In this document: positions 1 through 15,048 of the stretch, piece by piece | How the letters are laid out: the number at the start of each line of letters is the position of its first letter | Numbering within the stretch: position 1 is the first letter of the stretch | Source of the DNA: Sphingobium indicum B90A | GTDB taxonomy: Bacteria > Pseudomonadota > Alphaproteobacteria > Sphingomonadales > Sphingomonadaceae | Length of the DNA: 64,000 nucleotides | NCBI RefSeq assembly: GCF_000264945.2 | Contig: NZ_CP013070.1 | Span: 744,001 to 808,000 of the forward strand | Reading direction: 5' to 3' | Notes under the pieces: generated by a model | The model's database searches: none | What the model saw: only the letters and a program-made list of their open reading frames with translations | What the model was told of the DNA's origin: nothing | Translations under genes and position numbers: made by a program

Positions 1-1135
1 GGCTGGCGATGCCCCATCTGAAATCGAGCCGCGCGTCCCCAGAAGCCCCTGACCAGCGTTCAAGCGGCGCATCGTGAAGGAGCCTTGCCTTCATGCGTTT
101 CAGCCCATGCTCCCGCTGCTTGAGCAGTTCTATAGCGTGGTGATCAGCCTCAACCGGACCAGTGCCATCTCGGGCGATTGTTACCCACCCCCGAATGAAA
201 TCCCGCGATGACTTGGTGAGGTTGTGGCTAGTCCTGCCAATCAGCCCAAAAAGGTCGTCGAGATCCCAGTCGCCCAACGCCAGGTGATCCAGCTCCGACT
301 TCCAAACTTCGATGCGTGAGCGATAGTCCGCCGCCAATGTGTCCGCATCGGCATGTTTCTTGGCGTTTGGCCGGTCTGCAGCACGAAGGGCCAGCAGGAG
401 GTTATAGAGAAGGCTGGCTCCGTACATGACGCCGGAAAATCGTTCGGCATGTCGGAGGATCGCACGATTGGCGTCTGAGATTGTGTCTTCGCTGACCTGC
501 CAAGGCCAATCCTCCGTGAACGTTTTGCCCTTGCGAGCCAGCTCATTGAGCAGACTTGCGCCTGCATGACTTTCGATGCGGTCCCGCAGAAAGGCGGCTT
601 CGCCTTCAGTTAAGGCAAAACAGGTTTCGACCAAGAAATCTGCGGGCGGCTTTGGCAGGTTCGACGACCAAAGTTTGAGATCGTGGTCCTTCAAGCTCTC
701 CGGTCCATAGGACATGAATGTCGAATGGCTTCCCGCCAATGTTCGGATCCCCAAAGTGTTCAGGCCGGCCCAATAGACGCTTGATGCAAGACGCTTGAGG
801 TTTCGACCCGCGTCTCGACCGATCACCCCGATCGTCTCTCCTCCCCGTAGCAGCGCTTCGCTCAACTGGAATTCCAGATCACGAGCGATTACAATACGTT
901 CTGCCTGTGTAGCCTTGCGCCCCTGTGCCTCCAGATAGATCCACGGGATGAAAAGCATGTAGCGCAACCGCGTCTGGATTGTGCTGGTACCGGGAAAGAG
1001 CAGATCGGCCAGTCCGTCACGAACCGTGCCGAGGCCGAGTTCGTCGCGCGCCTCAGGCTGTTTGAACAGGTCGATCAGGGTTTGAGCGCGGCGACGCTCT
1101 TCGGGGTCAAAATCAATCCAGGCGAGATAAGACAT
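1..1135 (-). CDS. DUF6361-like protein, 3' end outside window
   Basis: An open frame starts at an ATG at 1135 and runs off the left edge, giving at least 378 residues. The N-terminus reads MSYLAWIDFDPEERRRAQ, and further on come DELGLGTVRD and FPGTSTIQTRLRYMLF. I recognise this as the pattern of the DUF6361 family, whose function is unknown to me. No catalytic motif or membrane segment is evident. It lies 60 bp downstream of the AddA-like gene on the same strand, so it is probably the third gene of that operon. The family call rests on remembered sequence pattern; the link to DNA processing or defence is inferred from the neighbours. Confidence 0.75.
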   Translation of the reverse strand, partial: MSYLAWIDFDPEERRRAQTLIDLFKQPEARDELGLGTVRDGLADLLFPGTSTIQTRLRYMLFIPWIYLEAQGRKATQAERIVIARDLEFQLSEALLRGGETIGVIGRDAGRNLKRLASSVYWAGLNTLGIRTLAGSHSTFMSYGPESLKDHDLKLWSSNLPKPPADFLVETCFALTEGEAAFLRDRIESHAGASLLNELARKGKTFTEDWPWQVSEDTISDANRAILRHAERFSGVMYGASLLYNLLLALRAADRPNAKKHADADTLAADYRSRIEVWKSELDHLALGDWDLDDLFGLIGRTSHNLTKSSRDFIRGWVTIARDGTGPVEADHHAIELLKQREHGLKRMKARLLHDAPLERWSGASGDARLDFRWGIAS

Positions 1136-1195
1136 GAATGCTTCTTCGGGAGGTGCTTGGTAGGGCGGGGCAGAGAGGTCAGATCCTCCACCTGT

Positions 1196-4100
1196 TCACG
1201 GCGACGCTCCGACGCTGGATGGTGAGACCTCGATGATCTCCCCCTTGGTCATCAGGACGATCATGCCCCGTTCGGCACCAGTCATGTCGAGATAGGCCTG
1301 TACCTGACCTTTGTAGTGCTCGAGCGACGCGGCATCGGGCGCTACATCGCTCTTCCAATCCACAATCGTACCCGGCTTGCCCTCGGGCGTCAGGGTGAGG
1401 GCGTCAGCAATTCCGGACGTCGCATATTCATGCCCGTCCGTGGTGTGACTCGCAAACACCGGGAATTCGGCTATCAGCTCGCCGCGTACTGCCGCAATCG
1501 GATCAAGTTTGAGTGTCTTGTCGATGCAACTCGCCAGCTCCTCGGCGGATAGGCCCGTCGCAGCATCGCTAACCGCAGTTCGGCCGAACTGAACGATCAA
1601 CTCCTCCGCTCGCTCGGTCAGCGAGCCAAGGTTGTCGAAAGTCTCACCCGTCAGAACCTCTTCCATCAGCTTGTGGAGGATCAGGCCCCGCTCGCGGCTT
1701 CCTTGAATGGCGAGCTGCGGCGCGAGCTTCTGAGGCTGCTGGTCGTCAGAATCGGTCCAGAGATCTGGTTCCTCCGAGACGATGACGGGGCCGGAAGATT
1801 CTTCGCTGCGGCTTGGGGCGAGCCATGTAAGTTGGACCTGCCGTTGCAGGATTTCTTCAGCTTCCGCCGCAAATATCTCTCGCGTCTGAGCATTGCCCGC
1901 TTCCCCTGCTGGCGATGGCACGCGCTCTGGCAGTTCGCCAGGATCGATGGCTGGAAGCTCGGCCAGCGAAAGGTCGAGCAAGCTTATCCATGCCGACTTC
2001 GATGGCGAGACATTGAGGCGAGGAAGAATCAGCAATTGGCGCGCCCGCGTTGCCGCCACGTACCACAGACGTATCCGTTCCCGATCCAGCTCGAGCTTTT
2101 CCGCCTCGATTGCCGCTTCGTGGCCCTCGGGCGGCACGCCGAAGATTGGGCAATAGAATGTGTTCGACTGGCGATCTGTCACCGCGCTGTCGGGACCCAT
2201 GACCCCGGTCATGGTGTTGATCGGAATGACGACAGGCCATTCCAGGCCCTTCGCCGCGTGCATCGTGAAGAGCGAGATGGCTTCCTCTTGCGAGTCGGGA
2301 CGACCTTCGACTGCTCGGGCCTCATCCTCCCACGCCCTCGTCATCGCCTCGGAAAATGACCGCAGGCCGCGCACCGCATAGGCGGTCGCAAGATTGAGGT
2401 AGAGGTCAACATTGGCGAGCGCGCGCTCCGCCTGACCGCGATGACGCTCGACCAGAATGGGCCTGATGCGCAAGACATCAATCGCCTGCGACAGAAGTTC
2501 ATGCGGCGTGGTGCTGTTTGCGCGCCGCGCAAGAGCCTGAAGTTTGACCAGCACCGCCCGAGCCAGATCGTGTGTGATGGCGTCAGCATCGACTGACAGG
2601 CTCAGGCGCGGGATACGGTCGGGCTCGCTCTCATTGCGCGGGAGCGCCCACACAATATCGAGCAATTCTTCATCTGTAAGGCCGACCAACGGCCCCCGAA
2701 GCAGGGCGCCCAGCGCCAATGTGTCGCGACGATCAGCAAGGACACGCGTGACCGCGATCAAATCCTGGATTTCCTGACGGCGGAAGAGTCCTTTGCCGGC
2801 TTGGGTCGCAACCGGGATGCCGCGCCGTTCCAAAGCTTCTTCGTATCGCCATAGTTCGGAGCCTGTCGGCGCGAGCAACGCGATGTCGCCCGGTTGGCAG
2901 AGGCGCGGAGTGCCGGACCGGCGATCGGCAATTTCGTGCCCGCCGATCAGCCGAGCGCAGAGGTCGGCAACAGCTTCGGCCTCACCGTCCCGTTGCTGCT
3001 CCACTTTCGCTTTGCCATCCTCGCCGGCAACTGCGACGTCGAGGGCGGCTACACACACGCCTTCGGCGGGATCGGAGTGGAAGGCATCGAGGGCTGTGAA
3101 GCCCGGCTGACCATCGGCAGAGAGTACGGCTTCGAAGCGCTCGTTGACGAAGGTCAGAATCGAGGCGCACGACCGGAAGTTGGTCGAGATGGAGAGCAAG
3201 CTTTCCTGACTGTGCGCGATGAACGCGTTGCGAGCCTGTACATAAGCGCCGACGTCGGCGCCGCGAAAGCGGTAGATCGCTTGCTTCGGATCACCCACGA
3301 GAAACAGCGCGCCGGGGCGGATTCGGAAATCCGCCCAATCGTCGCCTTCTTGCTGCGGATCACCGCATAACCGCCAGAAGATCTCGGTCTGGAGCGGATC
3401 GGTGTCCTGGAACTCATCGACGAGGACGTGGGCAAAACGCTTGCCAAGCGCCTGGCGTACGGCCTCATGCCTGCGCAACAGGTCGCGCGCGGCATAGATC
3501 AGATCGTCGAAATCGAGCTGTGCGCTGGAACGCTTGTAGTCGCGGTAACGCTCGAGGATTGGAGCGGCTTCGGAGACAAGCGCAGCCAGAACGTGGCCGG
3601 CAATCGCCTGCTGCATCGCAGCCCACGTCGCGCAGCATTTCACGTAGAGATCGTCGGCGGCGACGTTGAGCTGCTCACCATCGGCTTTGGATAAACCGGC
3701 CTGCTTCGCCGCTTCGACCCACTTGCCCTTCTTGCGATAGGCGGCAAATCCACCGGTCTTGGTGCATACGTCCGGATGGGCGCGCGCAACGAGCAACTGG
3801 ACAAGGCCCGCGGGTGATTGGGGTTCGGCGACTGCAGCTACTGCCTCTGCCATCTGTGCGAAGCCTGCCGCATAGCTGGCTGTCTCGGATTCGTGGGCCG
3901 AAGCATTGTCGATGAAGTCGCCCAAAGCCGTGGCCGCCTGTTGGAAATCCGCCATGCGCTGAGCGAACGGGGAGGGTGAAGGCGCCTTGAGCGTTCGCCT
4001 GCTGCGCAAATTGGCCGCGATTTTGTGGAGCAGCTCGACCGTAGCCTTAGGATTGTAGAGCACCATTTCGGCAATGATGCCGCCGTGTTCGCCGGATAGC

Positions 4101-4594
4101 CGCTCTCGCAGCCAGCCATCGACGATTTCGAGAAAGGCAAGATCAGCCAGGTTCCGATCCATGACCGTCGCGCCAGGATCGATATCTGCCTCAGCCGGGT
4201 AGGGCTTGATGAGGCGCTGGCAGAAGCCGTGAATCGTCGAGCAGGTGACTTCGTCGATCGCCGCGCTCGCGGTGACGAGATTGCTGCGCTGGGTATCGCT
4301 GAGGCCATCGGGAAGCGCGACTTTCAGCTCTGGCGCGATCCGGCCTTCGCTCAACTCGGCGACAAACTCCCTGACCCGCGACACCAATTCGCTTGCCGCC
4401 AGTTCGGTAAATGTCACCGCAGCGATGGCGCGCGGAGAGGTTCCCTCCGCGAGCATTACGGCGATACGCCCCGCCATTACCGCGGTTTTTCCCGAGCCAG
4501 CGCCGGCCTCGACAAGGATCGAGCGGGTATGCCGACCAATTGCATCGAAGCGGGCACCGTCGTCCTTCAGTTGCGCAGACATGGTCGTCATCAT
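1196..4594 (-). CDS. AddA-like UvrD-family helicase with C-terminal PD-(D/E)XK nuclease
   Basis: This is a superfamily 1 helicase fused to a nuclease, likely an ATP-driven DNA unwinding and end-degrading enzyme. Walker A is AGAGSGKT near residue 30. Walker B is VLVDEFQDTD near 390. Later helicase motifs are GDPKQAIYRFRG, STNFRS, MHAAKGLEW and YVAATRAR. The C-terminal nuclease shows a histidine in RGLILHKLMEE, GIADAL, the DxK core in IVDWKSD and QVQAYL. The frame opens at a GTG at 4606, but the ATG at 4594 overlaps the AddB stop as ATGA and has GGAGG just upstream, so I chose it. At 1132 residues it is a full-length AddA-type protein. It lies in an accessory island with DUF6361, so it is probably not the housekeeping addA. 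Confidence 0.88.
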   Translation of the reverse strand: MMTTMSAQLKDDGARFDAIGRHTRSILVEAGAGSGKTAVMAGRIAVMLAEGTSPRAIAAVTFTELAASELVSRVREFVAELSEGRIAPELKVALPDGLSDTQRSNLVTASAAIDEVTCSTIHGFCQRLIKPYPAEADIDPGATVMDRNLADLAFLEIVDGWLRERLSGEHGGIIAEMVLYNPKATVELLHKIAANLRSRRTLKAPSPSPFAQRMADFQQAATALGDFIDNASAHESETASYAAGFAQMAEAVAAVAEPQSPAGLVQLLVARAHPDVCTKTGGFAAYRKKGKWVEAAKQAGLSKADGEQLNVAADDLYVKCCATWAAMQQAIAGHVLAALVSEAAPILERYRDYKRSSAQLDFDDLIYAARDLLRRHEAVRQALGKRFAHVLVDEFQDTDPLQTEIFWRLCGDPQQEGDDWADFRIRPGALFLVGDPKQAIYRFRGADVGAYVQARNAFIAHSQESLLSISTNFRSCASILTFVNERFEAVLSADGQPGFTALDAFHSDPAEGVCVAALDVAVAGEDGKAKVEQQRDGEAEAVADLCARLIGGHEIADRRSGTPRLCQPGDIALLAPTGSELWRYEEALERRGIPVATQAGKGLFRRQEIQDLIAVTRVLADRRDTLALGALLRGPLVGLTDEELLDIVWALPRNESEPDRIPRLSLSVDADAITHDLARAVLVKLQALARRANSTTPHELLSQAIDVLRIRPILVERHRGQAERALANVDLYLNLATAYAVRGLRSFSEAMTRAWEDEARAVEGRPDSQEEAISLFTMHAAKGLEWPVVIPINTMTGVMGPDSAVTDRQSNTFYCPIFGVPPEGHEAAIEAEKLELDRERIRLWYVAATRARQLLILPRLNVSPSKSAWISLLDLSLAELPAIDPGELPERVPSPAGEAGNAQTREIFAAEAEEILQRQVQLTWLAPSRSEESSGPVIVSEEPDLWTDSDDQQPQKLAPQLAIQGSRERGLILHKLMEEVLTGETFDNLGSLTERAEELIVQFGRTAVSDAATGLSAEELASCIDKTLKLDPIAAVRGELIAEFPVFASHTTDGHEYATSGIADALTLTPEGKPGTIVDWKSDVAPDAASLEHYKGQVQAYLDMTGAERGMIVLMTKGEIIEVSPSSVGASP

Positions 4595-7248
4595 TCCGCC
4601 TCCCACACCTGAGCCGCATCGCCGAGCATTGCTGCCGCGATTGGACGCTTGCGTTTGCAGTAGGTTGGGCCGGCGTTTGCGGGCAACGCGAAGGCGAGAT
4701 CGTCGTAATCATCGCCGGTATCGGGGCCGGGGATCGCCAGCCCGGATTGCAGGTTCGACCGGGCAGCAACGAGGTAGCCGGTGACCTCGGACAGGACGGC
4801 GTCGGGATCGTCGAGCTGGAGGTCCAGGTTCTCCCGAGGATACAACAGCGACGCGGTTATGCTCACATCCTCGCCGAGCAAGGATTTCACTGCGAAGCCA
4901 TAGAGACAGCGTTGAAGCTCCTTGCCCCCGTTGAGGCGAATGGCCGACCGTGGAGCGCGTCCGGTCTTATAGTCTCGCACAATGGCGCGCTTGCCATCGT
5001 CAAGAATGTCGAGGCGGTCGATGTACCCCTTGATAGCAAAGCCTGCGCCGGGAATTTCGACCCTGGTGCTCGGATCCCAGGGAATGGCCCCGTCCGATTT
5101 GGCAGTAGAACCACCGAACGGCACCTCGGCAAAACTTTGCGCTCCCACCAGTTCCTGATTGCCATAGGTCAGGGCATTGCTTGCCGTCATTCGAGCGTCT
5201 GAGAGCGTGCGCGTCCAGATGATCGCCGGCGGCACCGGACGTTCACTTTCCCAATCGGCCGCCACTCGGGCTGCGGCATTTTCGACCAATTCGTCGACAA
5301 CTTGCGCCGTTGCGCTGCCGAGCCCGCCGGCGGCCTCGATGCTCTGGAGGGCGATGTCGAGCACCATGTGGACAAGGTCGCCCATTTCCAGCGGATCGAG
5401 CACCAACGGTTCGGCCCCGGCGTCAGGGGCGCTCCAGTGGAGTCCATAAACCCAGACAAAGCCGAGAGGGTTGCGGAGCAGGCGTCGCAGCGAACTGGCT
5501 GACTGCGTGCGATCGAGAACGGCCTGGATCAGGGGATGGTCTGGCCTCACCTTGCCATCGTGAGCGGTAATCTCCTCCCGCTTCCAATCCCGCCAGCAGG
5601 CCAAGGCGCTGACCGCTTGGGGATAGCCGCGAAACTCTTCCGTTCTGGCCATCAACCGATCGGTTTCGCTGAAAGCATGAAGCGGAACCGCATTGCGACG
5701 AAGATACATCTCGGTGCCAAGTCCGGAGAGCAGCGGACTACGTCCGAGGAGCCGGCCGTCGCTGTCGCGGCGGGCACGAGAAAGTACGAGCTGGCCAGAT
5801 GTCGTCGCCATAATAGTCTCGAAATCGCGCCTATCCGCCTGGTTGATCGGAAGTGGATCGAGCACATGGGTTGGGATGATGTGATCGGGGATCAAGCGGT
5901 CTTCAGAAATGCCACGCGGCCAACGCGAGGAATTCAGGCCAATCAGCCGGACAAACCGGCGCGGTGAGGCGGCAAGGGCACTTGCTGGCATCCACGTAAC
6001 CGAGACGCAGGAGTCGAGGCCGTCATCCTGCTTCAGGTTTTCCAGCGAAGTGTCGATCGATGCGGCCGGGCCGGCCATGAGTGCCTTGCGCCAAATCGCG
6101 AGCGCGCGGCCTGAAAGAAAGGCCGGGCCGATTTCATCGGCAGCGTCGGGTCCTTTCGCGAGCAGTTCGATCGCGAACTTCAGAGCGGGTGAATGGTCGC
6201 TTCCATCCGGCCAATCTTCGGCTTCGAGACCCGACAACAGCCGGTTCCACGCAGCTGACGTCGCCATCGGTGCATCGGTTGGCAAGACGCGCAGCCACCC
6301 TTCCGGCAGGACTGAAAGTGCGGGGCCATCCGAGCAGAGTGCGGCGAGGCGGCGGATACGGGTCTGCGACAGGCCGCGAACGAGAATGTCGGCCAATGCC
6401 GCAGCGGCCTGACCATCGCGGGTCGTGACTGTCCGAACGCCATGGACAAAGTGCAGGTCGATGTTCGCATCGGACCGCAGCGCCAGGAAATGATCGTCAT
6501 ATTCGGCAGTCGACGCCGCTGCGATTGCGATTTCGTGCGGGGCGACATCGCCGGATGCCAGAAGGGATCGTACCCAGCGCAACGCCTCGATAGCCTCGTG
6601 GAGACCCGAGGCGGCGCTTGCGACGCTGACCTCGGGATGCTGGGCCGCAGCTTCGACTACCTTTATCGCGGATCCCACCAACCAGGCCGGAATCCGGCGC
6701 GGCCCGGCACTCCACGTCACCGGAATCTCGGTCGCGAGCTCGATCAGCAATGGGCGCCAGCACGGCGATAGCTCGGTCAATCCCTCAACGGTCAGGGCGC
6801 CGAGCACCTTCTGAGAATGATGAATCCGGCTCCGCGCGCAGGCGACGATATCCATCGGCCTGAGCATTCCCGCGGGAAGTTCGGCCAGAACAGCAGCTTC
6901 GAGGTGGGCCAGCGCCTCTAGCCTGGGATGGCCTCCTGCGCCTGCGGAGAGGTCGATCCCAGCCCGCCAAACCTTGTGAAGAGTGTCGGCCGCAGCGTTG
7001 ACCATACCGGGGAGTGATTTGATGTTTTCCAACTCACCGAGCGGCGTATTGGGAAGCACTGACTGCAACGTCGAACGAAGCGTTTCGTCGTCAATCGGCT
7101 TGATGAAGCCTCCGGCCAACCGCACCGCTGCCTGCTCGAAGGACATGATCTGGGTGCCATGATGCCGATAGCGTGCAGCATGCAGCCGCTCGCAGCGCAT
7201 GGCATGTCTTCCGTGGCACACAATAGTTGAGCGACAAGCAGCATTCAC
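4591..7248 (-). CDS. AddB-like PD-(D/E)XK nuclease subunit
   Basis: This 885-residue protein is the likely partner of the AddA-like helicase. I see no Walker A motif. The middle part resembles the inactivated helicase half of AddB (SRWPRGISEDRLIPDHIIP, ETIMATTSGQLVLSRARRDSDG without a full ATPase set). The last third is a RecB-type nuclease: GDLVHMVLD with its histidine, GYIDRLDIL, the DxK core in IVRDYKTGR, and a QRCLYGF motif. The four-cysteine iron-sulfur signature of many AddB proteins is not evident. The start is a GTG at 7248 preceded by AAGGAAA at a 6-nt spacing. The stop overlaps the AddA start by 4 bp, implying translational coupling. It is divergent from the operon starting at 7506. 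Confidence 0.82.
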   Translation of the reverse strand: MNAACRSTIVCHGRHAMRCERLHAARYRHHGTQIMSFEQAAVRLAGGFIKPIDDETLRSTLQSVLPNTPLGELENIKSLPGMVNAAADTLHKVWRAGIDLSAGAGGHPRLEALAHLEAAVLAELPAGMLRPMDIVACARSRIHHSQKVLGALTVEGLTELSPCWRPLLIELATEIPVTWSAGPRRIPAWLVGSAIKVVEAAAQHPEVSVASAASGLHEAIEALRWVRSLLASGDVAPHEIAIAAASTAEYDDHFLALRSDANIDLHFVHGVRTVTTRDGQAAAALADILVRGLSQTRIRRLAALCSDGPALSVLPEGWLRVLPTDAPMATSAAWNRLLSGLEAEDWPDGSDHSPALKFAIELLAKGPDAADEIGPAFLSGRALAIWRKALMAGPAASIDTSLENLKQDDGLDSCVSVTWMPASALAASPRRFVRLIGLNSSRWPRGISEDRLIPDHIIPTHVLDPLPINQADRRDFETIMATTSGQLVLSRARRDSDGRLLGRSPLLSGLGTEMYLRRNAVPLHAFSETDRLMARTEEFRGYPQAVSALACWRDWKREEITAHDGKVRPDHPLIQAVLDRTQSASSLRRLLRNPLGFVWVYGLHWSAPDAGAEPLVLDPLEMGDLVHMVLDIALQSIEAAGGLGSATAQVVDELVENAAARVAADWESERPVPPAIIWTRTLSDARMTASNALTYGNQELVGAQSFAEVPFGGSTAKSDGAIPWDPSTRVEIPGAGFAIKGYIDRLDILDDGKRAIVRDYKTGRAPRSAIRLNGGKELQRCLYGFAVKSLLGEDVSITASLLYPRENLDLQLDDPDAVLSEVTGYLVAARSNLQSGLAIPGPDTGDDYDDLAFALPANAGPTYCKRKRPIAAAMLGDAAQVWEAE

Positions 7249-7505: not shown

Positions 7506-8189
7506 ATGGGATTGTTCAACCGGATCTTTGCCGGACAAAAGATCGACGAATGGGCGTCCGATTACACCCTCGTCGCTGCGAGAACGCTCAATCAGGTTGC
7601 GGCGGATCTGATCGTGTCTGCCGAAGATGAGATCGCCAAGGTCGGCCTGAAAGACGGGTTGTTCAGCCAGGCCACCTTCATCCAAGAGCGTATCGCGCCA
7701 ATGGTGCGATCCGTGGCGGAACCCGTCGCCATCGAGATCCTCGACGAGGCAAACGCGGCTCTCCTTGAACTGGTTGAGGAGCAGGCCGTTTGGGTGCGGG
7801 GGCCAGAGCATGCGGAGGAACCGGAAGGTGTCTTCGAGGGGGCAAGGGATGTCGCCGCAGCCGCGGTTCCGTTGGCCGCGGGGGCGGCTACCGCTGCTGC
7901 CCTTCCATTCGCAGCGGTGACGACCACGACGGCCTGGCTCGGGCTGGTGACCACCACAGCTATAAGTTGGCCGGTGGTGCTGGGTGGCGGTGCCCTTGCC
8001 GGATTGGGTCTTGCTACCGGCGTGTTCAACACAGCTAAGATACGCGATCGCACGTTGGTCCGTCTGCGAAAACGGGTGCGAGGTTTCATCGTCGCCTCGC
8101 TGATCGACGGAAGCGAACAGTCTCCTGCAATCCTGCAGCAACTCGCGACCGAATTTAACCGAGCCGCCAAGCGGGCGAAGTCCCTATGA
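7506..8189 (+). CDS. Membrane-hairpin protein of unknown family
   Basis: I do not recognise this 227-residue protein. The N-terminal half (about 1-110) is soluble and mostly helical. A long Ala/Thr/Gly-rich hydrophobic stretch follows at about 114-175, probably two transmembrane helices in a hairpin. A basic segment (RTLVRLRKRVRGF) and a soluble tail complete it. A soluble helical domain with a late hydrophobic hairpin is a layout shared by some membrane-inserting effectors, but that is speculation. The frame opens earlier at 7422; the ATG at 7506 has a G-rich upstream stretch and begins the conserved-looking MGLFNRIFAG. It is the first gene of the plus-strand operon and overlaps the next gene by 4 bp. 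Confidence 0.72.
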   Translation: MGLFNRIFAGQKIDEWASDYTLVAARTLNQVAADLIVSAEDEIAKVGLKDGLFSQATFIQERIAPMVRSVAEPVAIEILDEANAALLELVEEQAVWVRGPEHAEEPEGVFEGARDVAAAAVPLAAGAATAAALPFAAVTTTTAWLGLVTTTAISWPVVLGGGALAGLGLATGVFNTAKIRDRTLVRLRKRVRGFIVASLIDGSEQSPAILQQLATEFNRAAKRAKSL

Positions 8190-9202
8190 TTGGCTCGCTT
8201 GCGAACACGCTGCTGCGCGAGATTCCCGGTCACCTTCTGACCGGCGTTGCCTCGGGCGAATACCGCGTCTCGGGCTCCATCATCCAGTCCGTCACCTCGG
8301 GAAGGATCGTCGGGCATTTGCAAGAGACCTCGGCGCTCTCTTCGTTGCTGAGTTCCGGCCCCCTGGGGTTGCCCCAGTTGGCGCTCGAGGCCGTGAGCGT
8401 CGTCCAGAACGAACAGATCAAAGCCGCGGTCGCGGTGGTCCAGTCGCTCCAGGTAGCCAACCTCGCATTGAGCGGCATATCGATTGGGGTGTCGATTGCG
8501 GGAACCGCCCTGCTTGCCCGCCGGATCGCGCGCGTTGAGCAGAAGGTCGATGCCATCCTTCCCGGACTAGCAGCGATTGCACGAGGGATTGAGGGTTTGC
8601 GAACCGAGCGAATTGCGGAAGATTTTACACGCCTTCGCACTCTGGCCGACCAGGTCGAGGAAGCATGGCTTCCATCCGCCACCCACACCGAATGGACGGC
8701 TATTGCCCGCGATTCCCATTTCCTCGCAGACAGCTTCGAACGCCGTGCCCGTGACCTTGACGATGCCAGTGATCGTCTTTGTGGCGAACCCTTCGTGGAT
8801 GCCTATGCATTGGCTTCGGGACTGCGCATTACCGCGAGGTTGGCCGCAGGCCAGGATGACATGGCGCGTCAGGCCGCTACGGCTCGTACCCACACGCTTC
8901 TGGCGCTTGGCGAGCCCGTGCGCCTTGGCCGGTTGGTTCTCGCAGCTTCGCCAGACAATGACCTGGCGGCAACGCCGCAGTGGCAAGAGCGAATGGATCA
9001 GCGAACCGAAGACTTTCGCACCATCGTTAAATCAGCGCGCGAACGCGAACTCGCCGCGGCCGCCAGCGCGGAGACGCTGGAAGAATTGGCAAGGCAGGAG
9101 ATCTCCGGACGCGACTGGCTGGAAGCCTCGCGATCCGAGGACAGCAGCCCTCTGCTATTCCTGCCGGTTGGGCCCTTCGAACTGCAAGGGGAAACGCCGT
9201 GA
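8186..9202 (+). CDS. Membrane-anchored helical protein of unknown family
   Basis: I do not recognise the family of this 338-residue protein. The first 85 residues are mixed and include SGRIVGHLQET. One glycine-rich hydrophobic segment at about 92-112 could be a transmembrane helix, followed by a basic end (ARRIARVEQK) and a long, charged, helical region that looks cytoplasmic. The last 60 residues are rich in Glu, Arg and Ala and may form a coiled coil. Its ATG overlaps the previous stop, and its stop overlaps the start of the WYL gene, so the three are translationally coupled. Together with the preceding gene it may form a membrane complex; that is inference from the overlap and shared membrane character. 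Confidence 0.72.
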   Translation: MIGSLANTLLREIPGHLLTGVASGEYRVSGSIIQSVTSGRIVGHLQETSALSSLLSSGPLGLPQLALEAVSVVQNEQIKAAVAVVQSLQVANLALSGISIGVSIAGTALLARRIARVEQKVDAILPGLAAIARGIEGLRTERIAEDFTRLRTLADQVEEAWLPSATHTEWTAIARDSHFLADSFERRARDLDDASDRLCGEPFVDAYALASGLRITARLAAGQDDMARQAATARTHTLLALGEPVRLGRLVLAASPDNDLAATPQWQERMDQRTEDFRTIVKSARERELAAAASAETLEELARQEISGRDWLEASRSEDSSPLLFLPVGPFELQGETP

Positions 9203-10215
9203 CCCAGAGGATGGCCAAGCTCGATCGCACGCTGAAGCTCGTTCATATGCTGTGCGACAGCGGCGAAGGCCTGACCCTGGACGAGATGGCTGCCGGGCTC
9301 GGGGTTACCAGGCGAACCGCCGAGCGCCTGCGCGACGTCATCGCTCTTCATTTCGATGTCGTTGAGGACAGCGATGGACGAACCAAACGGTTTCGCATTC
9401 AAGACGCGCTGCGGCGGGTGTACACGCGTCCCACGGCTGCCGAGATCGCGGCACTCCAGGCTGAAGCCGACGCTCGCAATCGCGAGATGGCACCTCAGGC
9501 AGCGCTGCTTTCCAGCCTGCTCGATAAGACAAAAGCTGCATTGGATGATCGCGAAAAGCGAAGGGTCGATCCGGATCTGGAAGCCTTGGTCCGCCTTCAG
9601 CGCAGCAGGGTTCCCGCCGGGCCGGCCGTCGTCGCCGACCCTGAAAATCTGGCCGCTATCCAGGGCGCTATCATGGCAGGGCAATGTGTGGAATTCGATT
9701 ATCGCGCTGACGGGGCTGATATCTCACGATGGCGCCGCGTGATACCCTTTGGCCTTGTGCATGGTCCAATCACGTACTTGATCGGCAAAATGCCCGATCG
9801 AGATGCCGACCCTGTGCCCTTCCGTCTGGATCGGATGAAAAACGTGCGTGCGGCCAACACGTCGGGACTGCCTCCGGAAAACTGGGACCTCGACCGGTGG
9901 CTGTCACAAAGCTTTGGCATCTGGCGGGAGGAAGATCACGCAGTCGTGTTGCGCGTGCTCCCATCCTCCGTCGAACGCGCACGGCAATGGCGCTTCCATC
10001 CCGCTCAGGAGCTGGAAGAAACGGCTGAGGGCCTAACCGTAAGGTTCAGGGCTGGCGGCCTCCGAGAAATTGCCGAGCATCTTTTTACATGGGGCGGGGA
10101 GGTTGTGATCGAAGGCCCCGACGCGCTCCAAGCGGTTATGCGGGAGCGACTGGAGGCGGCCAGCGCATGCCTGCGACCGTTTTTGACGCAGCACGACGTT
10201 AGGGCAGGGACATGA
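9199..10215 (+). CDS. WYL-domain helix-turn-helix regulator
   Basis: The N-terminal 65 residues form a winged helix-turn-helix (LTLDEMAAGLGVTRRTAERLR). A linker of about 80 residues follows, and then a WYL domain at about 150-235 with FDYRADG, RRVIPFGLVHGP and ITYLIGK. A C-terminal WCX-like part ends the 338-residue protein (REIAEHLFTWGGEVVIEGP). WYL proteins bind DNA and commonly sense nucleic-acid or nucleotide ligands, and many regulate defence islands. The gene sits third in its operon, overlapping both neighbours by 4 bp, so it could be an autoregulator or an integral part of the system. Confidence 0.85.
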   Translation: MTQRMAKLDRTLKLVHMLCDSGEGLTLDEMAAGLGVTRRTAERLRDVIALHFDVVEDSDGRTKRFRIQDALRRVYTRPTAAEIAALQAEADARNREMAPQAALLSSLLDKTKAALDDREKRRVDPDLEALVRLQRSRVPAGPAVVADPENLAAIQGAIMAGQCVEFDYRADGADISRWRRVIPFGLVHGPITYLIGKMPDRDADPVPFRLDRMKNVRAANTSGLPPENWDLDRWLSQSFGIWREEDHAVVLRVLPSSVERARQWRFHPAQELEETAEGLTVRFRAGGLREIAEHLFTWGGEVVIEGPDALQAVMRERLEAASACLRPFLTQHDVRAGT

Positions 10216-10859
10216 GAAAACCCGATTCTGTTTCTGCGCTCGCTGATTTTGGCCGCGTTCGGTTGTCGAAGTCGTTCTTCATGCGTGATTTCCTGTTCTC
10301 CGACATTGCAGCGGTACATGGCCTGAGCAACGTGCCCGACGACCCTGATCTGGCGATCACCGCGGGAAGCAGGCTTTGCGAGGAACTGCTCGAGCCGTTG
10401 CAGGATAGGTTTGGCCGCATCGCCATACGTTCCGCGTTTCGCTCGTGCGAAGTGAACGGGTTGGGCAACGAGATGCAGGCGGCAGGGAAGAGCGGGTACA
10501 ATTGTGCTTCCAACGAAGCCAATTTTGCCGGGCACATTTGGGATCGACGCGATGCCAAAGGCCGGATGGGCGCCACGGCGTGCGTCGTCGTTCCAGCTTT
10601 TTGGGACGCATTCCAGGCAGAGGGGGATTGGCGCAAACTTGCTTGGTGGATCCACGATCACCTGCCCTATTCGAGCCTCTATTTCTTCCCGAAGTTTTGG
10701 GCCGTGAACATTGCCTGGTGCGAGGAGCCGGAGCGACGGATCGACAGCTATACCTATCCTAAGGGCTGTTTGACCAAGGTGGGCATGCCGAACAATTCCG
10801 GATCACACGAGCAGGATTGGGCTGGTATCGAGGCAGCAATGGTCCGCGGATTTGCGTGA
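10212..10859 (+). CDS. Peptidase M15-like fold protein, metal site apparently lost
   Basis: This 215-residue protein shows the frame of an M15-type (D-Ala-D-Ala carboxypeptidase-like) domain: AIRSAFRSCEVNGLG resembles the usual SGYRSPEVN segment, and GHIWD is followed by GATACVVVP. In active M15 enzymes the latter carries a metal-binding Asp (G-x-A-x-D) and a later His lies in a W-H motif. Here Cys replaces the Asp and FWAVNIAWCEE lacks the His, so zinc-dependent catalysis is doubtful. No signal peptide is visible, so a cytoplasmic role is more likely than cell-wall work. It overlaps the WYL gene by 4 bp. The fold assignment is pattern-based. Confidence 0.6.
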   Translation: MRKPDSVSALADFGRVRLSKSFFMRDFLFSDIAAVHGLSNVPDDPDLAITAGSRLCEELLEPLQDRFGRIAIRSAFRSCEVNGLGNEMQAAGKSGYNCASNEANFAGHIWDRRDAKGRMGATACVVVPAFWDAFQAEGDWRKLAWWIHDHLPYSSLYFFPKFWAVNIAWCEEPERRIDSYTYPKGCLTKVGMPNNSGSHEQDWAGIEAAMVRGFA

Positions 10860-10872
10860 AGGGGCACCGGGC

Positions 10873-11562
10873 ATGACGATTCCAGGCCAGCTGATCACCG
10901 CCGTCGATATGGCCATCGCGAGCGGAATCGATCCCAAGCGCTTTCGCGCAGCTCTTAGAGCTGCGGGCCTCGGCTGGCATCCGCACAACGGGCGTTGGGA
11001 GGTCGAGAGAGGAAGCGATCAGCACCATGACATGGAAAGGGTCATGGCTCGGCTGGGCGGAGGAGGCGCCCCCCTCCGGTCGATGCCAAAGGCGGCGCAA
11101 GACGTTTCTCGGACAGCAATCCGCGACGAGCATTATGTGCTCGATCTCTGCGATGCAGTTCTCGGACTGAAGGCCGTCCGCCAGCATTGCTTTCCGTTTC
11201 TCACCGGAGATCCTGATCGGCGTGGTTACCGGAAGCCTTTGCCTGTCGACGGCTTTTACCCGGCTCTCAGCCTCGTCGTGGAATATCATGAGCGCCAGCA
11301 CCGCGAGCGCGTGGGATTTTTCGACGACAAGCCGACGGTTTCCGGCGTGCCTCGAGGCGAGCAGCGCCGACGATATGATGAACGTCGGGCCGATTTGCTG
11401 CCGAAGCATGGCTATAGGCTAGTCGTTCTTGAGGTGGATGAATTTCCCCATGATAGCGCCAAGCGCCTGCTCAGGCATACCAACGACAAAGAGATCGTAA
11501 GCAGACGCCTCCAGGACTTCAGGACACAGGCCGGCTCAGGTTCAGTTTTATCTGCTGATTAA
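10873..11562 (+). CDS. PD-(D/E)XK / Vsr-like nuclease with N-terminal helical domain
   Basis: The first 60 residues (ASGIDPKRFRAALRAAGLGWH, then WEVERGS) look like a small helical, possibly nucleic-acid-binding, domain. The C-terminal 120 residues resemble Vsr/DUF559-type endonucleases: DGFYPALSLVVEYHERQH gives the Asp, Glu and His pattern, and RRRYDERRADLLPKHGYRL followed by VVLEVDEF matches the usual helix-strand end. The frame opens at a TTG at 10852, but the ATG at 10873 has GAAGGGG at 10858-10864 and is preferred, giving 229 residues. It begins 13 bp after the previous stop, so it belongs to the same operon and could be the DNA-cleaving effector. Confidence 0.68.
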   Translation: MTIPGQLITAVDMAIASGIDPKRFRAALRAAGLGWHPHNGRWEVERGSDQHHDMERVMARLGGGGAPLRSMPKAAQDVSRTAIRDEHYVLDLCDAVLGLKAVRQHCFPFLTGDPDRRGYRKPLPVDGFYPALSLVVEYHERQHRERVGFFDDKPTVSGVPRGEQRRRYDERRADLLPKHGYRLVVLEVDEFPHDSAKRLLRHTNDKEIVSRRLQDFRTQAGSGSVLSAD

Positions 11563-11586: not shown

Positions 11587-12363
11587 ATGGCTACTGAACC
11601 ACGTGCCCCCAGACTTGCCGTGTTGATTGATGCGGATAACGCCTCTTCGCGAATCGCACCCCGTCTCTTTGAAGAGATTGCGAAAATCGGCGAAGCGAGC
11701 GTACGGCGCATTTACGGCGACTTTTCCGGAACCAGGCTGAAATCCTGGGCCGACGTTCTCGCGCCACATGCCATCAAGGCGCACCAGAACTTTGCGTACA
11801 CCAGCGGCAAAAATGCCTCGGACATAGCCTTGGTCATTGACGCGATGGATCTGCTGCACACCGGCAGGTTCGATGGCTTTTGTCTCGTTTCTTCCGACAG
11901 CGACTTCACCGGTCTGGCATCGCGCATTCGCGAGCAAGGCGTTGATGTCTATGGATTCGGGGAACAGAAGACCCCGGAAAGTTTTCGCCAAGCGTGCCAC
12001 AGGTTCATCTATTCCGAAAACCTGTTGCCGGAGGCACCAACGCCGGACGAGCCAGAACGGCCTGATACGCGCCCCGCGAATGTCAAAAGGCCGCCGACTT
12101 CTGCAGCACCATTGATTCGGACCGCAATCTCGCAGTTGGACGATGAGGCAGGTTGGGTTCCCCTCGGACGGGTTGGCCAGCGCTTGGCTGCGCTCGCGTC
12201 TGATTTCGACCCAAGAACGTATGGCCAAAGCAAACTCAGCGATCTGGTTGAAAAGGCCGGGGGGTTTGAGTCGCGCAGGACCGACGCCGGCCACCTCCAG
12301 ATTCGCGTGCTCCCGAATGCCAAGGCGAAGCCGGCCAAGGCAAAGCAGTCTAAACCTGCATGA
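11587..12363 (+). CDS. NYN-domain (LabA/PIN-like) ribonuclease with OST-HTH/LOTUS domain
   Basis: The 258-residue protein begins with a NYN/LabA-type PIN-like domain (about 9-145): LAVLIDADNAS, the second acidic motif in KNASDIALVIDAMD, and CLVSSDSDF. These supply the clustered aspartates of a metal-dependent RNase. The C-terminal part (about 175-240) fits the OST-HTH/LOTUS domain (LDDEAGWVPLGRVGQRLA then FDPRTYGQSKLSDLVEKAGG), an RNA-binding winged helix, and a Lys/Ala-rich tail follows. It starts 24 bp after the previous gene and overlaps the GIY-YIG gene by 4 bp. Confidence 0.88.
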   Translation: MATEPRAPRLAVLIDADNASSRIAPRLFEEIAKIGEASVRRIYGDFSGTRLKSWADVLAPHAIKAHQNFAYTSGKNASDIALVIDAMDLLHTGRFDGFCLVSSDSDFTGLASRIREQGVDVYGFGEQKTPESFRQACHRFIYSENLLPEAPTPDEPERPDTRPANVKRPPTSAAPLIRTAISQLDDEAGWVPLGRVGQRLAALASDFDPRTYGQSKLSDLVEKAGGFESRRTDAGHLQIRVLPNAKAKPAKAKQSKPA

Positions 12364-13121
12364 CTGAAGAGCTACCCGACCTCTTCCTTTCCACGATCGC
12401 TGATGGCGGCTTCGTCCACGCTGGTAGGTGGGACTTGAACGCCGATGGGATGCTGATTTTCGCGGGCAATGCGCCGAAGCATCCCGGCGTCTACATTTTC
12501 GTGCAGGCCGGAAGAGCGCGGTATGTCGGCGTCGCGTCAAGAAGCCTCGCGCAGCGGCTTTATATGTACAGCCGCCCTGGCATTAGCCAGCGAACCAATA
12601 TTCGCCTGAACGCGGCTCTCCGCGACGAGCTCGCAGTCGGCAGCATCGTCGATGTCTATGTGGCGAACCCACCCGACCTCGAATGGAATGGGTGGAAAGT
12701 GTCCGGCGCCGAGGGTCTCGAAGCAGCGATCATTCGCAGCTTCCGATTGCCCTGGAATCGGCGAGGGACGATTCCAACGCAGATGTCTTCGGCATTGACG
12801 GGACGCCCACCGACCAGTTCGGCCGAAAGTGCCTGCCCCTCAGGATCCGCAGTTCCCAACCAAAGAACGACAACCGCCGACCGCATTCGCGAATATGCCG
12901 AGAGCCGGTTCTTCGATCCGGCCCGGGATGCAGGTCGGTCCATTGTCGAAATCTCAGCACGGGAAATTCACGATGCACTAGGGCTGCGCAACGCGTTTCC
13001 ATCGGTTTGCCAAGCACTCAGCGGGAGAAAGATCGCTGAACTTTGTCGGGTGAACCTCACTCGGCGAATTGGCCCCAGCAACAGCTCGACGACTGTCTAT
13101 GTTTACGAAATGCTCGAATAA
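12360..13121 (+). CDS. GIY-YIG nuclease-family protein
   Basis: A GIY-YIG domain occupies about residues 38-130: PGVYIF and ARYVGVAS are the two signature strands, followed by a catalytic-type Arg in SLAQRLYMY and a Glu in GAEGLEAAIIRSF. The last 80 residues form a separate helical domain (ISAREIHDALGLRNAFPSVC) that looks like a winged helix and may select the target. The ATG overlaps the NYN stop, so the two nuclease-fold proteins are translationally coupled. GIY-YIG enzymes cut DNA in restriction, repair and mobile elements; the substrate here is unknown. Confidence 0.8.
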   Translation: MTEELPDLFLSTIADGGFVHAGRWDLNADGMLIFAGNAPKHPGVYIFVQAGRARYVGVASRSLAQRLYMYSRPGISQRTNIRLNAALRDELAVGSIVDVYVANPPDLEWNGWKVSGAEGLEAAIIRSFRLPWNRRGTIPTQMSSALTGRPPTSSAESACPSGSAVPNQRTTTADRIREYAESRFFDPARDAGRSIVEISAREIHDALGLRNAFPSVCQALSGRKIAELCRVNLTRRIGPSNSSTTVYVYEMLE

Positions 13122-13172
13122 GATGCCTTGTGCCGCTCTTGCATGCGCTCGCTGATTTCGCCGGGGGCTTAG

Positions 13173-14246
13173 ATGGCACTGCGATCTATCGACACTCATT
13201 CGGGCGAGAGCATTCATGCGTTCGAATTTGCGCCACAGGACTGGCAATCGCTTGCCGCCCAAAATGCGCGCGAACGGCATCTCCGCGCACCTTGCTGTCA
13301 GGCCGAGATAATACTCCGGCGTTCCAAGCTCGGCACCCAGCATTTCGTCCATAGGTTTCGCGGCGCCTGCACGAGCGCGCCGGAAAGCGAAGACCATCGC
13401 CAAGTGAAACGTGTGATTGTCGAGGCGGCGAGAGCCAATGGTTGGTGTGCAGAGGCAGAATTCGACGGGCTGAGCAGCGAGAATGAGCCATGGAGGGCCG
13501 ACGTGCTGCTCACCAAGGGGGCTGTTCGCATCGCGATCGAGGTGCAATGGTCGAAGCAGAGCCAAGAGGAGACGGCTCGCCGACAGTCCCGCTACGCCTC
13601 GTCCGGCGTCCGCGGTCTTTGGCTTTTCAGGCAGGCGCGTTTCGACGCATCTAAGGACATTCCTGCTGTACGGATCAGCGGCAACCCAATCGATGGTTAC
13701 GATGTCTTCGTTCCGACCGGCGCCGGCGAGCAGGTTCTGCCACTCTCGTCGTTCATTTCTGCTGCCTTGAGCCGGCAGTATCAATTTGGCCTGCCGCTCG
13801 GCGCCCCGGCAGACGTTGAGGTTCGGTGCGGCAATTTGGATTGCTGGAAGTGCGGGGCTGAGACGCTGATCATCACCGGACTCGATATCAGCATTGGTCC
13901 GCATAAGGTTTCGGCGAGCATCTCCGATCTCGGCAGTTATCCTGATCTCGTGCGGCGGACCTTGCAGGCGATCCCTGCACAAGCATCGCTTGGCCGGATC
14001 ATGCACCGCAACAGCCGGGAGGCTGGATCTCGTTACCTGAGCAACGGATGCGCCCACTGTGGCGCTCTAATCGGCGCTCATTACGAATATCAGGCCTGGA
14101 ACGACCAGGATGTCGTGGCGAGGTTCCGCACCGTTGTCGATGAAGCGATGCGGCAATTGGCGATCGACCTCGGTGACGAGCCGGGGTGGGGCGTGCATGT
14201 GGAGAGGATTGCCAACCGGGATATATCCCCCTTCGATCGCGTGTGA
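13173..14246 (+). CDS. CoiA-like nuclease with zinc-binding cysteines
   Basis: This 357-residue protein resembles the competence protein CoiA family. An N-terminal treble-clef-like part has APCCQAEI and FVHRFRG. The nuclease core is HRQVKRVIVEAARANGW, then WRADVLL and IAIEVQWSKQS, followed by RQSRYASSGVRGLWLF. The Asp and the E-x-Q pair are the expected PD-(D/E)XK-type active residues. The C-terminal half carries two more cysteine pairs (CGNLDCWKCG and CAHCG), probably zinc ribbons. The ATG at 13173 lies 51 bp after the GIY-YIG gene. CoiA acts in DNA uptake in some Gram-positives; in an island like this it is more likely a DNA-processing or defence nuclease. Confidence 0.75.
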   Translation: MALRSIDTHSGESIHAFEFAPQDWQSLAAQNARERHLRAPCCQAEIILRRSKLGTQHFVHRFRGACTSAPESEDHRQVKRVIVEAARANGWCAEAEFDGLSSENEPWRADVLLTKGAVRIAIEVQWSKQSQEETARRQSRYASSGVRGLWLFRQARFDASKDIPAVRISGNPIDGYDVFVPTGAGEQVLPLSSFISAALSRQYQFGLPLGAPADVEVRCGNLDCWKCGAETLIITGLDISIGPHKVSASISDLGSYPDLVRRTLQAIPAQASLGRIMHRNSREAGSRYLSNGCAHCGALIGAHYEYQAWNDQDVVARFRTVVDEAMRQLAIDLGDEPGWGVHVERIANRDISPFDRV

Positions 14247-14307
14247 ATACCATTTGTAGATCTAAGCTACGACCGCTTCTGGCGTATGGCCGATACATGA
14301 GGCGATG

Positions 14308-15048
14308 ATGAGTGAACTGTTTCTCCCAGGCGTGCCAGCTGATCTGGTCCGCCTGTCATTGGATAGGGCGGGTGGTAACGAACTGGCCTCCGGTAAATTC
14401 GCAAGTCCCGAAAGCAGTGCCGCCTTGGCGGCTAATGGATTTGGCTGGTTCATCGAGAGACCAAACCTGCTTCCGGCTTTCCCCGGCCTTGATGACATCG
14501 AATGGCCACCTGCCTCGGTGGAAATTGAACGGAAGATGCGCTTTCCCTGGCAGGGCGGTCGTCACCCCTGGCTTGATGCCGCCGTTGTGACCGAAACTCA
14601 TCTCATCGGGGTGGAGTCCAAACGATACGAGCCATTCCGCGATAGGAAGCAGGCGGTGCTTGCCCAGGCCTATGATCGAGATGTTTGGGGTGAGGCAATG
14701 GAGCCTTGGCTGGCCATTCGGGATTCTCTGCGTGGAAATCCGCGCTCCTATCGCTACCTTGATGCAGCGCAGCTCGTGAAGCACGCATTTGGGCTTTCGA
14801 CCGAAGCCAAACGGGTTAGCCGATCACCGATCTTGCTGTATCTCTACGCCGAGCCTGAACGTGTGCCTGCCTCTGCTTGTTCAGAGCATCGCGCGGAAAT
14901 CGATCGCTTCTCAGCCGCGGTGCGCGGCGCGCGTGTTCGATTTGCTGCGACGAGCTGGGCGGAGTGGCTGGCGCGTTTCGTGGGGCCAGAGGCTACACCT
15001 GCGGTAAGCGCTCATGCGCAGGCCCTGCGCTTGAAGTTTCAGCCATAG
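14308..15048 (+). CDS. PD-(D/E)XK endonuclease-like protein (PGN_0703 type)
   Basis: This 246-residue protein shows IERKMRFPWQGGRHPWLDA, then HLIGVESKRYEPFRDRK. I recognise this pattern from proteins annotated as PGN_0703-type putative restriction endonucleases: an acidic residue in WLDA and the E-x-K pair in ESKRYEPF give a PD-(D/E)XK core. The N-terminal part is short and no methyltransferase is nearby. Two adjacent ATG codons at 14305 and 14308 are possible; GAGG at 14299-14302 is better spaced for 14308. It lies 61 bp after the CoiA-like gene on the same strand. Confidence 0.65.
   Translation: MSELFLPGVPADLVRLSLDRAGGNELASGKFASPESSAALAANGFGWFIERPNLLPAFPGLDDIEWPPASVEIERKMRFPWQGGRHPWLDAAVVTETHLIGVESKRYEPFRDRKQAVLAQAYDRDVWGEAMEPWLAIRDSLRGNPRSYRYLDAAQLVKHAFGLSTEAKRVSRSPILLYLYAEPERVPASACSEHRAEIDRFSAAVRGARVRFAATSWAEWLARFVGPEATPAVSAHAQALRLKFQP

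Follow-up and report, generated by a model that had tools for sequence, protein, structure and literature searches.

A run of five closely packed genes in Sphingobium indicum B90A raises the question of whether these genes work as one immune system and, if not, which of them belong together. The genes, labelled A to E in their order, lie within the 64,000-nucleotide stretch of DNA analysed here (hereafter the window; contig NZ_CP013070.1, positions 744,001 to 808,000, assembly GCF_000264945.2), and L-numbers denote the loci examined. An initial annotation had put forward all five as an undescribed immune system. Homology supports the membrane-acting module in this proposal, whereas the five-gene set did not hold. 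In our reading of the sequence comparisons described below, A and B probably constitute an anti-phage module of two genes, in which a JukB-family effector is combined with a partner that is not JukA (probability about 0.6).

Gene B is a homologue of JukB

The PADLOC JukB model, PDLC04114, matched residues 8–148 of B with an E-value of 7.7e-13, and the same model was matched by all 37 members of the B alignment, including P0077 and P0078, at E <= 0.01. When the B profile was compared by hhalign with two PADLOC-defined JukB proteins, it aligned at 99.1% over 146 columns, and the homology was confined to the N-terminal half of B. The top Foldseek rows for B were those of the solved JukB, 9jht, at an E-value (0.032) that fell short of significance. 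These comparisons show that the N-terminal half of B is homologous, by sequence, to the JukB proteins defined by PADLOC.

In the genome samples that we searched, members of the JukA and JukB families were sparse. PDLC04114 was found in one of 398 genomes of the phylum, namely that of S. indicum itself, and in one of 274 genomes of another class; the JukA models PDLC04113 and PDLC04112 were found in 4 of 299 and 4 of 258 sampled genomes, respectively.

A and B occur as a recurring pair

We scanned genome contigs with the B profile, which gave 30 loci, mainly alphaproteobacterial. A phmmer search with A alone identified an A relative adjoining B at 18 of them. By hhalign, with a test profile made from 24 database sequences only (A and 23 homologues) and a cut at 87%, the gene upstream of B was A-type at 24 of the 30 loci (scores of 87% or more), a count biased towards A-type partners because the scan was drawn with a B-clade profile. 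Upstream genes below the cut were those of L030 (83), L013 (46), L021 (3) and L028 (0.3); the comparison covered 28 of the 30 loci, as L032 lies at the edge of a contig and L033 offered no candidate gene. Ten Rhodobacterales A-type matches spanned only 34–92 columns, probably the hydrophobic part, and the profiles of the Rhodobacterales and the other A-type group matched each other at 98.1% over 180 columns.

Among 61 genomes (that of S. indicum and 60 relatives), A and B occurred in the same three. The pair was also present on a Sphingomonas changnyeongensis plasmid and a plasmid of Sphingomonas sp. NBWT7 (L045 and L048; of the four plasmid records that carry a relative of B, these two were looked at, and the two from Croceicoccus were left out), L048 being a conjugative-type Sphingomonas plasmid with an A-type partner gene. 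A further pair was seen outside the class, in the genome of L049. These results show that A and B travel together. A literature search, limited in depth and made without the primary Juk paper, found no description of it.

Gene A does not match JukA

JukA belongs to the YaaW family (PF13099/PF03981), and a canonical JukA–JukB pair was found on a Pseudomonas luteola plasmid (L052), where JukA (PDLC04112, 2.4e-28) overlaps JukB (PDLC04114, 4.4e-142) by 4 base pairs (bp) beside restriction-modification genes. The PADLOC JukA models gave no match to gene A at E<=1, and PDLC04113 had no match anywhere in the S. indicum genome. More generally, none of the models in PADLOC 2.0.0 matched gene A at the cut-offs used, which is why this program does not report A–B as a Juk system. 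The initial annotation had matched the five genes to no defence system. In the catalogue comparison B matches a catalogued family, JukB, and A matches none of the models; what remains new is the A–B pair without JukA.

We considered whether A might simply be a JukA too far diverged for sequence comparison to recognise, which would make A–B an ordinary Juk system. The gene order and the 4-bp overlap are as in the P. luteola JukA–JukB pair, and P. luteola JukA has, near its C terminus, a hydrophobic stretch (residues 169–199) followed by a short tail, as A does; E. coli YaaW is without such a stretch. In hhalign comparisons, however, A and JukA aligned at only 0.2–1.3% over 9–40 columns, and A aligned with a nine-member JukA profile at 0.8–1.0%, while the controls succeeded: P. 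luteola JukA aligned with the other eight members at 98.6%, and the A-type gene of L049 with the A core at 98.7%. The JukA scores of the 28 B-upstream genes tested from the 30 loci likewise argue against such a divergence, the best being 10.6% (L023) and the rest 2.3% or lower. These tests gave no sequence match between A and JukA, and we regard a diverged JukA as improbable.

The structural model of A consists of long N-terminal helices, a hydrophobic stretch and C-terminal helices, and the two segments that make up the hydrophobic stretch (Table 1) fall in a low-confidence part of the model. By hydropathy, the partner genes upstream of the B relatives in L013, L014 and L028 encode no such stretch. 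Because the L014 partner is still clearly A-type (96.7%), the hairpin of A looks dispensable or exchangeable. A and JukA may play similar parts without a detectable sequence relationship. As a separate observation on the upstream genes, those of L048 (3025–3741; 4.5e-4) and L051 (6e-4) gave weak matches to the PADLOC LeoBC models.

Comparison with Juk and other JukB-like loci

The action of JukB is reported to spare the cell. According to a review (PMC13282480), JukA senses early phage proteins located on the infection vesicle and recruits JukB, which forms tetrameric pores there; the review describes JukA as a single sensor with many effectors. Like Juk, A–B is a two-gene unit in which the partner gene comes first, the two genes overlap by 4 bp and the second gene is of the JukB family. 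The hydrophobic segment of B corresponds in position to that of P0078, and defence genes nearby, seen in the A–B loci sampled, count among the shared features. Unlike in Juk, the first gene matches no JukA in the sequence tests, and the homology of B to JukB does not extend beyond the N-terminal half.

The host range also appears to differ, the A–B loci being mainly alphaproteobacterial. Chimallin is the shell protein of nucleus-forming phages. A single-query search, limited in its reach, found chimallin matches in 95 of 50,697 phage records, several of which say nuclear shell protein; these phages were named for Pseudomonas, Erwinia, Serratia, Klebsiella, Escherichia, Xanthomonas and Burkholderia, and within the reach of this search none of the 95 records was named for an alphaproteobacterial genus.

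JukB-like genes on Nostoc and Chlorohelix plasmids resemble B in that their matches to the JukB model are N-terminal (1.1e-13 and 7.6e-23). Their settings are unlike that of B: before one JukB-like plasmid gene stand a dynamin-family gene and a gene for a 282-amino-acid protein, the latter neither A-type nor JukA, and the other is flanked by helicases. Since the canonical JukA–JukB pair exists on the P. luteola plasmid, JukB-type proteins appear to be used with unrelated partners.

A possible mode of action

That the pair acts in defence, with A as the sensor, B as the pore-former and phage as the target, is inferred; judged from homology, recruitment of a membrane-active B by A is its most likely way of working. 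In the module that we favour, A, a helical protein usually with a membrane hairpin, would recognise or dock onto an infection-specific membrane or an early phage protein and would recruit B. B would then insert its hydrophobic helix, oligomerise and destabilise either the infection-specific membrane, as JukB is described to do at the early phage vesicle, or the cell's own membrane. A would fill the place of JukA without a detectable sequence relationship to it.

If B acted on the host membrane, A–B could instead be an abortive-infection or toxin–partner pair, with B as the pore-former and A as its activator, a second pore subunit or a restraining partner. We consider this unlikely, because B is closest by sequence to JukB, which acts on the phage vesicle according to the review (PMC13282480).

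For the anti-phage module with a non-JukA partner, a wider and more tentative view can be offered, in which JukB-type vesicle or membrane attackers are possibly a shared effector for several unrelated sensors, and A–B is a separate system of immunity in Alphaproteobacteria, responding to another early event at the membrane or to an undescribed vesicle- or nucleus-forming phage group. The loci compared here appear to reverse the one-sensor, many-effector picture of Juk given in the review, in that one effector family occurs with different partners. Should A prove to be a sensor, JukB-type effectors would be directed in a second way unrelated to the first, and A could help to reveal what phages of Alphaproteobacteria display at their early membranes.

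Genes C, D and E are separable from A–B

The five reading frames (Table 1) were confirmed on the sequence as they had been described initially, with three successive 4-bp overlaps (A/B, B/C and C/D) and a 13-bp gap between D and E, for which TTG at 10852 is an alternative start. Hydropathy agreed with the description of two membrane proteins, with two stretches in A and one in B, and a domain search found the WYL domain claimed for C together with a WCX domain. The coding score was positive for all five frames. In comparison with Sphingobium cyanobacteriorum (L004), the ratio of nonsynonymous to synonymous divergence was 0.05–0.16 for A–E, i.e. constrained, and the amino acid identities were 95, 95, 97, 96 and 81% for A, B, C, D and E, respectively.

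Table 1. Positions of the A–E genes and their features in the window
Feature	Position	Strand	Basis or remark
Gene A, 227-amino-acid partner protein of B	7506..8189	+	B-upstream gene A-type at 24/30 loci
Hydrophobic hairpin-like stretch of A, residues 116–138 and 156–174	7851..8027	+	Hydropathy
Gene B, 338-amino-acid JukB-family protein, presumed membrane-active effector	8186..9202	+	PADLOC, hhalign
JukB-homologous N-terminal half of B, residues 8–148	8207..8629	+	PADLOC JukB, hhalign
Hydrophobic segment of B, residues 92–111	8459..8518	+	Hydropathy; P0078 counterpart 92–114
Gene C, HTH-WYL-WCX regulator, separable accessory	9199..10215	+	338 amino acids, GTG start
Gene D, derived M15-like protein, separable accessory	10212..10859	+	215 amino acids; weak M15/endolysin similarity
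Gene E, putative nuclease, often after A–B	10873..11562	+	229 amino acids; invariant D/E/Q/H residues

The tight overlaps, which for A–D are also found in S. cyanobacteriorum with all three junctions conserved, would favour A–E as one dedicated five-gene system, as first proposed. The five genes are not kept together, however. A, B, C and D adjoined at only one of the 30 loci, that of S. cyanobacteriorum, and even there E is displaced to 2.9 kb past B, with a gene for a 424-amino-acid SHOCT-domain protein between D and E. At four of the 30 loci (L006–L009), A–B was followed by E without C or D, and an NYN/LOTUS gene also follows there. The genome counts diverge as well: strong homologues of C and D occurred in eight and seven of the 61 genomes, respectively, and E in two, as compared with three for A and B. 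Finally, the synonymous distances to S. cyanobacteriorum were unequal (0.10 for C, 0.21–0.22 for A and B, 0.30 for D and 0.91 for E), which indicates separate gene histories. The five-gene system is thus already largely refuted, and we regard it as very improbable.

C matched in 14 of the 61 genomes, the eight strong matches having 57% identity or more; five of these eight genomes were without A/B, and two of the eight homologues had an internal stop. D matched in 12 genomes, of which seven matches were strong (64% or more, E below 1e-80), four of them without A/B, and the remaining five were weak and N-terminal. C may regulate the operon locally. In the S. indicum genome itself, a second C paralogue (62%) is divergent to a D-like frame (64%, with one internal TGA counted) at L081 8124–10679 (C1 2976–2979 kb), so that a loose association of C with D, independent of A–B, is possible.

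D gave a match to phrog_894 (5.4e-5), a weak M15/endolysin similarity, and its Nostoc homologue matched Peptidase_M15_3 below the curated cut-off. The M15 profile matches of D were thus weak or below cut-off; H108, D111, D114, H148 and N166 were invariant in seven homologues, with no classical zinc site assigned among these residues. Relatives of D were found on Rhizobium, Sinorhizobium, Nostoc, Acinetobacter and Pseudomonas plasmids (five of the 11 records looked at), and these five had no annotated WYL neighbour in their gene tables, which are incomplete. On the Nostoc plasmid (L042 4001–4666), the relative of D is annotated as a peptidase M15 and is divergent to a NACHT-domain gene.

E had no Pfam, PADLOC or NCBIfam match, and matched the HNH-endonuclease family phrog_559 weakly (0.021). 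The earlier assignment of E to the PD-(D/E)XK nucleases was accordingly not confirmed by any profile, although the residues invariant in seven aligned homologues (D126, E137, E140, Q142 and H143, forming a D...E-x-x-E-x-Q-H pattern) are compatible with it. Actinobacterial plasmid relatives cover 31–63% of E, starting at about residue 70. We regard D and E as add-on island genes.

The locus lies in a defence island

The region is a defence island, within which C, D and E are separable neighbours. Its G+C content was 0.585–0.627 over the first 20 kb of the window and 0.622–0.682 beyond, which is consistent with, but not proof of, a foreign origin. At the loci L006–L009, the pair is flanked at its A end by a ZacA–ZacB–ZacC set (ZacA was scanned in L008, ZacB and ZacC in L006, and the rest were assigned by clustering). 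At the other loci only a sample of the neighbouring genes was scanned; the defence-like ones were GmrSD (L013), an MkoA-like gene (L024) and methyltransferases (L010 and L019), and a non-defence neighbour, an oxidoreductase gene, follows B in L015.

In the window, a ZacA/DUF6361 gene (PADLOC ZacA, 1.4e-113) lies 5′ of A on the minus strand (2–7248). The same interval encodes a UvrD-type helicase and an AddB-like PD-(D/E)XK protein in place of ZacB and ZacC, and the set is possibly a Zac variant. On the 3′ side of E (11587–15048) are genes for an NYN and OST-HTH/LOTUS protein, an unassigned 253-amino-acid protein and a CoiA-like nuclease, and a REase-ARP gene. At L007–L009, E and the NYN gene are followed by a gene for an ADP-ribosylglycohydrolase–phosphatase fusion, which was scanned in L007 and assigned at the other two loci by clustering.
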